Source: a virus. Taken from it: 25,136 nt of DNA. Within the stretch, counting starts at the first letter, position 1; every line of letters starts with the position of its first letter. The position numbers were made by a program, and so were the translations under genes. The stretch spans positions 1 to 25,136 of IMG/VR virus record IMGVR_UViG_3300025910_000032; one strand, given 5' to 3'. Under the pieces are notes generated by a model. That model saw only the letters and a program-made list of their open reading frames with translations, was not told the DNA's origin and did not search any database. Below are positions 6,687 to 9,369 of this stretch, one piece after another.

Positions 6687-7070
6687 CTATGCCGACCGCC
6701 GCAAAAACAGCGGCGGCGGATCGTAGTAGGTTTCCTCGTAGTCCGTGATTTCCTGGGCCACGCGCACCGCCTCCGGTGAGATCAAGCCGGGACTGACGCG
6801 GGCCTGCGCGCACAAAATCTTGGCAAACAGGAAAATCTCGCCGACGTTGGAAATGTCGCTGCCGAAATTATCCAAAAGCCCGGCGGCCGCCGTGTTCGGA
6901 TCAGCCGCCGCCGGCGCTTCCTGAGCCTCCCTTCGTTGTGGAGGATCCGCGAAAGGTCCAGCCGCCGCATCGGGGCAAGGGGGCGATATCAATGCGACGG
7001 CTGTGTCCGCGGCGGAGGGTATTGGCGCCGCGGAATCGGTAAGGAATGGTGACGGAGGAAGCGCGGTCAT
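6687..7070 (-). CDS. Hypothetical early protein with disordered N-terminus
   Basis: A 127-residue protein. The first ~65 residues are rich in alanine and proline and look disordered. The C-terminal half (NFGSDISNVGEIFLFAKILC ... PEAVRVAQEITDYEETYYD) is a compact helical piece ending in PPPLFLRRSA. The ATG at 7070 was chosen because GAGGGGG lies six bases ahead; an in-frame TTG at 7088 has no such site. It is second in the leftward operon, after the probable regulator. I do not recognise the family. Confidence 0.62.
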   Translation of the reverse strand: MTALPPSPFLTDSAAPIPSAADTAVALISPPCPDAAAGPFADPPQRREAQEAPAAADPNTAAAGLLDNFGSDISNVGEIFLFAKILCAQARVSPGLISPEAVRVAQEITDYEETYYDPPPLFLRRSA

Positions 7071-7100
7071 CGCGGCCCCCTCGTCCAAGGCGCGATGATC

Positions 7101-7433
7101 TCAGCGAGATCGGCGCAACTGTGCCCGAGTGATGTCAATCGTTTCGCGATGAAACTCCGCGTCCGAAAGAACCAGAAGACTTTCAATTCGGGTGAGCCGA
7201 AGCCGAAGTTCCGAGAGTTCATTGCGCGTTTCCTTTGCCTGTTTTTGTTTCAAGGCGTCGTCGATACGCACAACTTCAGCCGGCTCAATACGACGGGCGC
7301 GGCGATACCAAATTTCATAGCAACGCGAGTATTTAAGCCCCGCCAAACGGGCACTTCTCGCAATAATGTCCTCGATCTTCTCGCCGCGATCGTGCGGCTG
7401 TGAAAGCGCTTTCAGCTTCTCCGCGACGTCCAT
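7101..7433 (-). CDS. First gene of the leftward operon, probable HTH regulatory protein
   Basis: A 110-residue basic protein. Residues ~20-55 (KIEDIIARSARLAGLKYSRC ... EIWYRRARRIEP) resemble a helix-turn-helix, in which R-x-A-x-L-x-G followed by Y-x-x-x-Y would be the recognition region. A C-terminal helix (ELSELRLRLTRIESLL) looks like a dimerising coiled coil. AAGGGGG precedes the ATG by five bases. Its promoter region carries a 16-base palindrome at 7457-7472, possibly its own operator. The regulator role is an inference from fold pattern and first-in-operon position. Confidence 0.6.
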   Translation of the reverse strand: MDVAEKLKALSQPHDRGEKIEDIIARSARLAGLKYSRCYEIWYRRARRIEPAEVVRIDDALKQKQAKETRNELSELRLRLTRIESLLVLSDAEFHRETIDITRAQLRRSR

Positions 7434-7440
7434 CTCAGCC

Positions 7441-7480
7441 CCCTTCCACAAAATTATTGTGAGCGTTCACAACGACTGCT
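7441..7480 (-). promoter_or_regulatory. Probable leftward early promoter with 16-base palindromic operator
   Basis: TTGTGA-N4-TCACAA at 7457-7472 is a perfect palindrome. On the leftward strand it directly precedes and overlaps a -10-like AATAAT, and the ribosome site AAGGGGG of the first operon gene follows within ~20 bases. The -35 is poor. A second inverted repeat CCATG-N7-CATGG lies at 7483-7499. The site probably regulates the leftward replication operon; the binding protein is unknown. Confidence 0.5.
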
Positions 7481-7505
7481 GGCCATGCTCCGAACATGGT
7501 TGCCC

Positions 7506-7682
7506 CTACGCCAGGATTAGAAAATGAAAACCGCTCTCACCGCCGCGCTGGCACTGACCGCCATGGTCATCGTCAACGTCTGGGCGCTGTTCTTCTGCTC
7601 GGTGTGCTGAAATGCGCGCCGCGTTCACCGCTTCGAAGCCGGCGGCGAGATCGCGCAGGAATGTGCGGATGATGTCAGTCAT
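7506..7682 (-). CDS. Small hypothetical protein (uncertain)
   Basis: A 58-residue frame with a convincing helical N-terminus (MTDIIRTFLRDLAAGFEAVN) but a Gly/Gln-rich, less convincing C-terminus. That C-terminus lies antisense to a possible 28-residue rightward membrane peptide (7524-7610). The ribosome site is weak. It lies between the immunity genes and the leftward operon, a place where small regulatory genes are common. Both frames cannot easily be full genes under strong selection; this one is somewhat better supported by composition. Confidence 0.35.
   Translation of the reverse strand: MTDIIRTFLRDLAAGFEAVNAARISAHRAEEQRPDVDDDHGGQCQRGGESGFHFLILA
7524..7610 (+). CDS. Possible 28-residue membrane peptide
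   Basis: The frame reads MKTALTAALALTAMVIVNVW then ALFFCSVC: a basic residue at position 2 followed by one uninterrupted hydrophobic helix and a Cys-rich end. AGGA stands about eight bases before the ATG. It could be a signal-like or toxin-like membrane peptide. It is antisense to the leftward 58-residue frame, so at most one may be functional. No recognisable family. Confidence 0.35.
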   Translation: MKTALTAALALTAMVIVNVWALFFCSVC

Positions 7683-7693
7683 GCTGACGCACT

Positions 7694-7711
7694 CGTTCCG
7701 TTTTTGGAACG
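7694..7711. promoter_or_regulatory. Inverted repeat CGTTCC-N6-GGAACG
   Basis: A perfect 6-base inverted repeat lies just upstream of the leftward 58-residue frame. It shares the GTTCC/GGAAC half-sites with the repeat at 1906-1922. No terminator-like T-run follows the stem on the leftward strand. A protein-binding site is possible; target unknown. Confidence 0.3.
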
Positions 7712-7834
7712 CAATGCACGCTGAAGTGTATTCCCCTCCCACCGAAAAAGAATTTCGGCGTTGGTGTGAATTTTATATGTCGGGAATGCTACAGTTGTGC
7801 TTTGATGACCACTCGCCCAACAAGAGGGTAGGTC

Positions 7835-8527
7835 ATGGGCACGCTTATTCGGTTTCCCCGACGACTTCATGCGCGTGCCTCTTCAGCCACAGGGATAGCT
7901 TCCAGCTTCCGCGCTGCCAACTCAGCCAAAACTTCGAGGGTGATGTCAGGCCTGCCGCGTTCGGCAGCCAATGCCACCACGGCCGCCCAGTGTGGCGCCG
8001 GGATGCCGCGCTTGCGCCAGCCGGACACGACGGACAGCAATTGCCCAAGCGCACCGGCGACCTCGCCAAGTGCACCTGGAGGCGGTGGTGAACCACCGCA
8101 AAGGTCGTCGATGAGTGAATCCCAAGTTGCCATGGGCGCGAACATAGTTTGCATGGTGCAAACCTGTCAAGAGTTTGCAACTCGCAAAACGACATTTTCC
8201 GCAGAATGTGGTGCCATTGGTTCCATGATGGACCCGCCACACCTCGTTTCTGCGCGCCTGAAGGCACTCAGGCAGGAACTCGGCTTTAAGAGCCAAGCCG
8301 CGTTCGCCGAGCGGCTGGGAATTGACAAGAGCACCTATAATCCATTCGAAACAGGCGCTCGGCCACTGACTTTCGAGACTGCCTGCCTGATCCGGCGCGA
8401 ATTCGGCATATCGATCGACTGGCTGTTCTTCGGCGATTTGCAGCAGGGCGCCATCCAGACCATGGCAAAGATCGGTCGCGGTACCGGCGCACCGCCGCCC
8501 AAAGTTCGCAAAACGGCCAATAAATAA
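7835..8527 (+). CDS. Possible long form of the XRE regulator, antisense to the leftward HTH gene
   Basis: The frame of the XRE protein stays open back to an ATG at 7835, giving 230 residues. That ATG has GAGGG six bases upstream, a better ribosome site than the internal start at 8225. The N-terminus MGTLIRFPRRLHARAS matches a pattern I recall from Bradyrhizobium-type ORFs that end in an XRE domain. Residues ~12-100 lie antisense to the leftward HTH gene and look like low-complexity shadow sequence. The two proteins may therefore share a C-terminal XRE domain, or the long form may be chance. Confidence 0.35.
   Translation: MGTLIRFPRRLHARASSATGIASSFRAANSAKTSRVMSGLPRSAANATTAAQCGAGMPRLRQPDTTDSNCPSAPATSPSAPGGGGEPPQRSSMSESQVAMGANIVCMVQTCQEFATRKTTFSAECGAIGSMMDPPHLVSARLKALRQELGFKSQAAFAERLGIDKSTYNPFETGARPLTFETACLIRREFGISIDWLFFGDLQQGAIQTMAKIGRGTGAPPPKVRKTANK
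7867..8133 (-). CDS. Leftward Cro/YdaS-like helix-turn-helix regulator
   Basis: An 88-residue protein. Residues ~28-60 (ALGEVAGALGQLLSVVSGWR then KRGIPAPHWAAVVALA) show the compact HTH of YdaS/Cro or carph-isopro-type regulators. The ATG at 8133 was chosen over those at 8145 and 8154 because a strong promoter (-35 TTGACA 8170-8165, -10 CTATGT 8147-8142) would start RNA near 8135. The upstream ATGs would thus not be transcribed, and the message is nearly leaderless. It is divergent to the XRE gene with operators 1 and 2 between, forming the probable lysis-lysogeny switch. Confidence 0.75.
   Translation of the reverse strand: MATWDSLIDDLCGGSPPPPGALGEVAGALGQLLSVVSGWRKRGIPAPHWAAVVALAAERGRPDITLEVLAELAARKLEAIPVAEEARA
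8141..8170 (-). promoter_or_regulatory. Leftward promoter with operator 1 in its spacer
   Basis: On the leftward strand a consensus -35 TTGACA (8170-8165) is followed after exactly 17 bases by CTATGT (8147-8142), or TATGTT one base further. The 17-base spacer is filled by operator site 1. A repressor bound there would directly block polymerase. The predicted start, near 8135, coincides with the start codon of the leftward HTH gene. Confidence 0.7.
8148..8162. promoter_or_regulatory. Operator site 1
   Basis: TTTGC-ATGGT-GCAAA, extending to the perfect 17-base form GTTTGCA-N3-TGCAAAC. It lies within the -35/-10 spacer of the leftward promoter. Three further copies lie at 8174, 8530 and 8561. 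The likely ligand is the XRE regulator or the leftward HTH protein. Confidence 0.75.
8174..8188. promoter_or_regulatory. Operator site 2
   Basis: TTTGC-AACTC-GCAAA, a weaker copy (two mismatches in the extended 17-base consensus). Its centre is 26 bases from that of site 1. It lies just upstream of the leftward -35 and upstream of the XRE gene's short-form start, so it may affect both directions. Confidence 0.7.
8225..8527 (+). CDS. XRE-family helix-turn-helix repressor
   Basis: A 100-residue protein whose residues ~7-70 form a classic XRE/lambda-repressor domain. LVSARLKALRQELGFKSQAA gives helices 1-2, FAERLGIDKSTYNPFETGAR the recognition helix and loop, and the end GISIDWLFFGD is the common helix-5 motif. 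There is no LexA-like peptidase part, so it resembles the small repressors of P2-like phages. No clear ribosome site precedes the ATG at 8225; 8228 is an alternative. The same frame extends upstream to 7835. Two operator copies lie on each side of the gene, suggesting it controls both arms. Confidence 0.82.
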   Translation: MMDPPHLVSARLKALRQELGFKSQAAFAERLGIDKSTYNPFETGARPLTFETACLIRREFGISIDWLFFGDLQQGAIQTMAKIGRGTGAPPPKVRKTANK

Positions 8528-8529
8528 TA

Positions 8530-8544
8530 TTTGCAGACTGCAAA
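8530..8544. promoter_or_regulatory. Operator site 3
   Basis: TTTGC-AGACT-GCAAA, one mismatch to the extended consensus. It lies just after the XRE stop codon and its centre is 31 bases (about three helical turns) from that of site 4, a spacing that would allow cooperative binding. Confidence 0.72.
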
Positions 8545-8552
8545 CTTTTCTA

Positions 8553-8582
8553 TTGACTAGTTTGCACCCTGCAAACTAAGGT
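8553..8582 (+). promoter_or_regulatory. Rightward promoter with operator 4 in its spacer
   Basis: TTGACT (8553-8558) is followed after 17 bases by CTAAGG (8576-8581), or TAAGGT one base on. The spacer is filled by operator 4, the same layout as the leftward promoter. RNA would begin near 8588, upstream of the first rightward gene at 8609. The -10 is weak, so activation or low basal activity is possible. Confidence 0.62.
8561..8575. promoter_or_regulatory. Operator site 4
   Basis: TTTGC-ACCCT-GCAAA, perfect in the extended form GTTTGCA-N3-TGCAAAC. It occupies the spacer of the rightward promoter exactly as site 1 occupies that of the leftward one. Confidence 0.75.
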
Positions 8583-8608
8583 GTCTTCGGATCAACCGGA
8601 GCGCACCA

Positions 8609-8869
8609 ATGCCCACCGCCGAGCAACGCGCCGACCACGCGCACGATTATCGCAAACACGAACCCTCCCCCCGCCACCAGAAGCGCGCCGTCTCCGTGCT
8701 CGTCGGCTATTGCTGGGGCTTAATGGGCAGCGGCGTCCTCGGCGCCGAGGTCGAAAAGCAACTCCGCGCACGCATCCGCACCGTCTGTATCGAATTCGAC
8801 ATGGAGCCCCCGCCCGAGCCGACGAAGGCCGCCGCGATTTCCTGCCTCATGTTGCGGGAGCCTGTGTGA
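8609..8869 (+). CDS. First gene of the rightward operon, function unknown
   Basis: An 86-residue protein beginning MPTAEQRADHAHDYRKHEPS, with a short hydrophobic region (VSVLVGYCWGLMGSGVLG) followed by a helical charged part. The hydrophobic part is glycine-rich and not clearly a membrane span. GGAG lies seven bases before the ATG and the operator-controlled promoter lies ~20 bases upstream, so this should be an immediate-early gene. That position is where cro- or anti-repressor-type genes are found, but no HTH is evident. It overlaps the next gene by one base (TGATG). Confidence 0.65.
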   Translation: MPTAEQRADHAHDYRKHEPSPRHQKRAVSVLVGYCWGLMGSGVLGAEVEKQLRARIRTVCIEFDMEPPPEPTKAAAISCLMLREPV

Positions 8870-9270
8870 TGGGAAAAACGTATTCCCTCGAAACCGACCT
8901 GATGCCGATCATGCGCGGGGACGTTGCACTACCGAATCCTGAGCCCATCAATCGCGATATCGGCGCTGAGATACTGCACTACAACCAGATGCGCAGCGGA
9001 TGTTCTGTGTTGCTGCCGGGAGAGACGTCCAAAAAATGGAACGTCAGTTTCTTCCTTGACAGCGGGCAAAGCGGCCAACTCTACGGCTCGGGCCTCGTTG
9101 CTTGGACGAAATGGGACAACGAGAAGCGGACCTATGCCGCTACCGGCCTGCGCTTCGCGATCTGCCAGCATACCAAGGTAGATGACCCCGGCGCGAACCA
9201 CTCGCGCGGCTGGCATCCCGGTCGCTGCTCCAAGTGCGGCCTCGACATGACAATCGACAGCGGAGACTGA
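8869..9270 (+). CDS. Hypothetical protein with C-terminal zinc-binding cluster
   Basis: A 133-residue protein. The front two thirds show alternating beta-type sequence (SGCSVLLPGETSKKWNVSFF; GSGLVAWTKWD). The end carries AICQH ... H ... GWHPGRCSKCGLDM, a Cys/His cluster able to bind zinc. GGGAG lies eight bases before the ATG. It is the second gene under the rightward early promoter. The family is not recognised; the zinc cluster suggests nucleic-acid or protein binding. Confidence 0.65.
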   Translation: MGKTYSLETDLMPIMRGDVALPNPEPINRDIGAEILHYNQMRSGCSVLLPGETSKKWNVSFFLDSGQSGQLYGSGLVAWTKWDNEKRTYAATGLRFAICQHTKVDDPGANHSRGWHPGRCSKCGLDMTIDSGD

Positions 9271-9271
9271 C

Positions 9272-9369
9272 ATGGAAATCAACGCCCACTTCGTTCGAAA
9301 AATCAGCGCCTGAACATGCTGGTGCAGTACAGCATGGAAACACTGCCCAACGTACCGGATAGGGATTGA
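9272..9369 (+). pseudogene. Possible small gene broken by a one-base frameshift
   Basis: An ATG with GGAG six bases upstream opens MEINAHFVRK and then stops after 13 residues. Moving one base at the run of five A's (9297-9301) gives a continuous frame to the TGA at 9369 (NQRLNMLVQYSMETLPNVPD), about 32-33 residues in all. An A/T indel in that run, a sequencing error, or two separate minigenes (9272-9313; ATG at 9316) would all explain it. The flanking genes are intact. Confidence 0.35.

Follow-up and report, generated by a model that had tools for sequence, protein, structure and literature searches.

A probable lysogeny switch with mirrored operator-promoter modules around a single-domain XRE repressor in an uncultured phage and its metagenomic relatives

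The immunity region of phage lambda, arranged as OL-PL, cI and OR-PR-PRM, is the closest described counterpart of the locus reported here (the lambda features that we compare are general knowledge). This locus lies in a 25,136-base window, the whole of IMG/VR virus record IMGVR_UViG_3300025910_000032, where four TTTGC-N5-GCAAA palindromes are placed around a small XRE gene. By sequence, it shares with lambda a repressor gene flanked by operator sets in outward early promoters, a divergent gene for a DNA-binding protein in the cro position, a division of the arms into one for recombination and integration and one for replication and packaging, an operator beside the repressor promoter and, in some relatives, extra genes in the rex position. 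Unlike in lambda, the map is mirrored, each module has two operators rather than three (in the window and nearly all relatives), the repressor is a lone HTH domain without a cleavable C-terminal domain, and the cro-position gene itself looks leaderless. Hence, the switch would work like a mirrored lambda immunity region, but because of its two-operator modules and the lack of the cleavable repressor domain we regard it as a variant rather than a full member by the usual definition. The features of the locus are as follows:

7867-8133, minus strand: HTH gene in the cro position, 88 aa, transcribed away from the XRE gene
8141-8170, minus strand: predicted leftward promoter; -35 TTGACA (8170-8165), 18-bp spacer, -10 TATGTT (8146-8141), 7 nt to the ATG (8133-8131)
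8147-8163: operator site 1, GTTTGCATGGTGCAAAC, perfect; fills the leftward promoter spacer; conserved in 25 related loci
8173-8189: operator site 2, GTTTGCAACTCGCAAAA; directly adjoins the repressor promoter -35; its centre lies 26 bp from site 1 and at -44 from the repressor ATG
8189-8217, plus strand: predicted repressor promoter; -35-like ACGACA (8189-8194), 17 bp, extended -10 TGG-TGCCAT (8209-8217), 7 nt to the ATG (8225)
8225-8527, plus strand: XRE repressor gene, 100 aa, single HTH domain, D34 as the recognition-helix N-cap
8529-8545: operator site 3, ATTTGCAGACTGCAAAC; begins 2 bases past the repressor stop codon, with one base between
8553-8582, plus strand: predicted rightward early promoter; -35 TTGACT (8553-8558), 18-bp spacer, weak -10 TAAGGT (8577-8582)
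8560-8576: operator site 4, GTTTGCACCCTGCAAAC, perfect; fills the rightward promoter spacer; 31 bp from site 3
8586-8600, plus strand: predicted leader hairpin, TTCGG-ATCAA-CCGGA; the Shine-Dalgarno for the ORF that follows lies in the 3' arm
8609-8869, plus strand: first rightward early ORF, 86 aa

A preliminary description of this DNA had placed four operator sites around the repressor gene, and all four are found there; a scan of the entire record recovers exact TTTGC-N5-GCAAA copies at these sites only, against an expected mean of 0.045 per window and a maximum of 1 in 400 dinucleotide shuffles. The 17-mer consensus with three mismatches allowed is less striking (4 of 100 shuffles reach four), so the weight rests on the exact words and their positions. 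Sites 1 and 4 had also been assigned to 17-base spacers of outward promoters with the -10 boxes CTATGT and CTAAGG. The sites do fill the spacers, and TTGACA and TTGACT are present, but we read both -10 boxes one base further, with 18-bp spacers, because relatives conserve TAtnnt in this register, with the 18-bp spacer, in the leftward promoter. The rightward TAAGGT is a poor -10 box (3/6). The two modules, which had been called identical, are similar and mirrored, but they differ in the distance between their sites (26 versus 31 bp) and in what follows: an apparently leaderless start on the left versus a leader with a hairpin and a Shine-Dalgarno on the right.

This arrangement recurs in metagenomic sequence. 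A protein search recovered four viral relatives; each retains the four sites and their spacing, and in two the operator word differs. A scan of IMG/VR with the pattern TTGAC-N2-GTNNGC-N5-GCNNACTA, which holds DNA only and no protein information, matched 37 stretches, 17 of them with both mirrored copies. An XRE ORF lies between the mirrored modules in 15 of these 17; the other two (L014 and L039), which come from one phage, contain an XRE remnant without its HTH. In all, about two dozen further IMG/VR loci share the module layout with an XRE gene between. The recurrence of the layout under a DNA-only pattern, along with the joint change of operator word and XRE helix considered below, upholds the earlier proposal of a compact switch in which the repressor gene sits between mirrored modules. 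Across nearly all of the 26 rows of our table, sites 1 and 2 are 26 bp apart (25 in one) and sites 3 and 4 are 30-32 bp apart; the third site is degenerate in L029, and the right module of L018 lies off its contig. A second, relaxed pattern scan mainly added single-match contigs, which were left out of the analysis. One natural variant, L038, has an in-frame deletion of ~156 bp relative to L026, which takes out the XRE HTH and leaves a short protein and all four operators; this deletion and, separately, that in L014/L039, both of which leave operators and promoters in place, fit a loss of repressor function.

Several loci depart from the common plan. L122 is the sole case with a third left operator-like site, 21 bp from its neighbour, such that its sites fall at -101, -80 and -54 from the XRE start. 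In L040, L015, L024 and L108, extra ORFs with lipoprotein-like N-termini (LCGC, LSGC, LGGC and LAGC, respectively) lie between the XRE gene and site 3; by analogy with lambda rexAB, whose position they share, they may be lysogenic genes, for example for superinfection exclusion. L034 and L044, matched by the DNA-only pattern, feature TTGAC promoters whose spacers hold a GTACGC-N5-GCGTAC palindrome, with no XRE relative detected, and perhaps belong to another operator family that is placed in the same way.

The close relatives are all metagenomic contigs. A blastn search with positions 7000-9300 had no match among phage records, a genome-contig scan with a single protein returned only a spurious match, and plasmid records yielded only distant HTH matches. 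A profile search combined with a de novo palindrome search found similar layouts in distant phages with the other words TACAG, TTACA, TACAC and TTCAG. Among named phages, Bradyrhizobium phage ppBeUSDA76-1 shares a leftward small ORF, a rightward HTH regulator followed by an integrase, palindromes on the left side of the regulator and, on the right side, a pair spaced by 32 bp, but its operator word is TTCACA...TGTGAA and its regulator is only 32% identical. In Rhizobium phage RHph_I3_18, the cro position is taken by a relative of the leftward HTH protein, and the gene reading away from it is annotated as repressor C; however, that repressor gene is long (696 bp), and mirrored modules with the present operator are not seen there. 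Sinorhizobium phage StopSmel was set aside, being annotated with a Ner-type (Mu-like) switch. We found no published description of the switch layout or of the carph-isopro protein in the open-access literature, a search that gives weak evidence of absence.

The 100-aa XRE protein has matches above the curated cut-offs to HTH_3 (PF01381; 39.6 bits, cut-off 23) and Phage_CI_repr (PF07022; 25.7 bits, cut-off 22). Profile searches returned no family match outside its HTH and, with only HTH families matching, no C-terminal peptidase, cooperativity or cleavable RecA-induced domain. Its AlphaFold model has pLDDT values near 90 for residues 1-70 and poor values after 72, and places the recognition helix at residues 35-43 with residue 34 as its N-cap. 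The best structural matches of the model include the DNA-binding domains of P22 c2 and the 434 repressor, with which it shares the fold and a recognition helix expected to read the operator; it differs from them in the operator word (TTTGC, TTCGC or TTGGC-N5), in having no C-terminal domain and in an identity of only 23-29%.

The third base of the operator half-site is T, C or G, changing as a set across the sites of each phage, with TTGGC phages mixing in some TTTGC half-sites. XRE residue 34 is D in 7 of 7 T or G loci and in none of the 17 C loci, where it is A, E, K or T. When the recognition-helix columns are left out of the tree, the operator class is seen to switch four times, each time together with residue 34, and only two of these paired changes fall on well-supported branches; thus, the pattern of co-variation is strong, but it comprises only four independent changes. 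Column 81 of the XRE protein also separates the operator classes, but its residues are mixed. The base that pairs with T (A) or with G (C) could donate a hydrogen bond to an aspartate at the N-cap, whereas the G that pairs with C could not. Because residue 34 tracks the third operator base, it is very probably the XRE protein that binds the operators as a repressor. The operators themselves are concentrated at the switch: exact copies are confined to it in 13 further whole records (all TTCGC), and in six T and G records nearly all operators lie there, two records having one match elsewhere.

The starts of the two divergent genes show a conserved geometry. The leftward promoter was defined from an alignment of 25 loci, in nearly all of which the ATG lies 11 nt past ACTA; counted over the 26 rows, the HTH ATG falls at exactly this distance, which is 7 nt past the -10, in 23. 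On the other side, the same number of aligned loci gives the consensus CGACattt...TGnTnnaaT-N7-ATG for the repressor promoter, and in nearly all the XRE ATG stands 36 nt from the start of ACGAC, with the extended -10 TGnTnnaaT ending 7 nt before it. The bases between these fixed promoter and start elements vary freely. Shine-Dalgarno-like words are found upstream of the start in 3 of 25 HTH genes, 1 of 25 XRE genes and 23 of 23 rightward ORFs. The simplest reading is that the HTH and repressor genes are probably translated from leaderless mRNAs, a mode for which lambda cI, expressed from PRM, is a known precedent. An XRE message starting at its own ATG would place site 2 centred at -44, close to the position of lambda OR2, which is centred at about -42 from the PRM start. 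For the leftward HTH gene, the most likely start is the ATG at 8131-8133 rather than the longer ORF start at 8154. Its 88-aa product scores 34.5 bits against NCBIfam NF046037 (carph-isopro domain), below the cut-off of 38. At 2880-2940 in RHph_I3_18 (L162), the annotated HTH gene start lies inside its likely promoter, and a later ATG would make that gene leaderless too.

The rightward transcript appears to begin differently. RNAalifold on a sequence-only alignment of the leader returned five consensus pairs, two of them with changes on both sides; the hairpin is consistent only when the folded stretch includes the -10 side, a start farther downstream having given none. This lends moderate support to an mRNA that probably opens with a hairpin in which its Shine-Dalgarno is contained. 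The 86-aa ORF that follows has no family match in profile searches.

Taken together, these features make it very likely that the locus serves a temperate phage as its lysogeny (immunity) switch, in which a dimer of the 100-aa XRE repressor would bind the four palindromes and block both early promoters. At site 1 it would shut off the left arm, which runs from the 88-aa HTH gene through other small genes to a RusA-like nuclease and the terminase small subunit. At site 4 it would do the same for the right arm, comprising the 86-aa ORF, an exonuclease VIII-like gene, an AAA protein and an integrase-like gene. Sites 2 and 3 would be helper sites, and a dimer at site 2, at about -44, could activate the weak promoter from which the repressor itself is expressed, much as CI bound at OR2 does in lambda.

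It is a real possibility, though one to which we give less than even chances, that the leftward HTH protein is the main operator-binder, or that both proteins bind all four sites in the manner of lambda CI and Cro. At every locus compared, the HTH gene reads away from the XRE gene and stands under site 1, its homologue in RHph_I3_18 occupies the cro position beside a long C repressor, and its best column, near the recognition helix, explains 0.83 of the operator-class entropy. However, operator class and the XRE N-cap residue correspond without exception, and the natural XRE HTH deletions that keep the sites fit repressor loss while still accommodating a second binder. It is highly improbable that the XRE protein is instead an autoregulator resembling an antitoxin or restriction controller, its operators tuning only its own expression: weak profile matches to the HipB, HigA and RstR models and a fold resembling restriction controller proteins are set against the location of sites 1 and 4 in the promoters of two early gene sets rather than that of the XRE gene, the lack of any recognised toxin or restriction enzyme beside it, and a layout tied to phage early genes.

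Within the XRE-repressor switch, occlusion might be supplemented by a DNA loop joining dimers at both modules, as between lambda OL and OR. Across 25 loci, the distance from site 1 to site 4 shows a 10.5-bp periodicity (R 0.56, p about 4e-4; p about 0.004 for unique distances), but a 12-bp period is nearly as good (p 8e-4), the loci are related, and the repressor has no known oligomerisation domain; hence, looping is only suggested, and we consider it rather unlikely. Only tentatively would we go further and propose an undescribed, widespread class of switch that pairs a single-domain repressor with a cro-position gene, both expressed from leaderless mRNAs, in which one N-cap residue reading one operator base largely sets immunity specificity and a DNA loop holds the two modules without a repressor C-terminal domain.

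The locus and its relatives provide an aligned family of about 25 uncultured-phage lysogeny switches whose operators, recognition helices, promoter geometry and translation starts can be considered side by side. They raise the question of what inactivates a repressor at induction when it has no cleavable domain. The family also offers a natural series for the repressor-operator code, at the level of one residue and one base, and such a code could predict the immunity groups of metagenomic phages by sequence alone.
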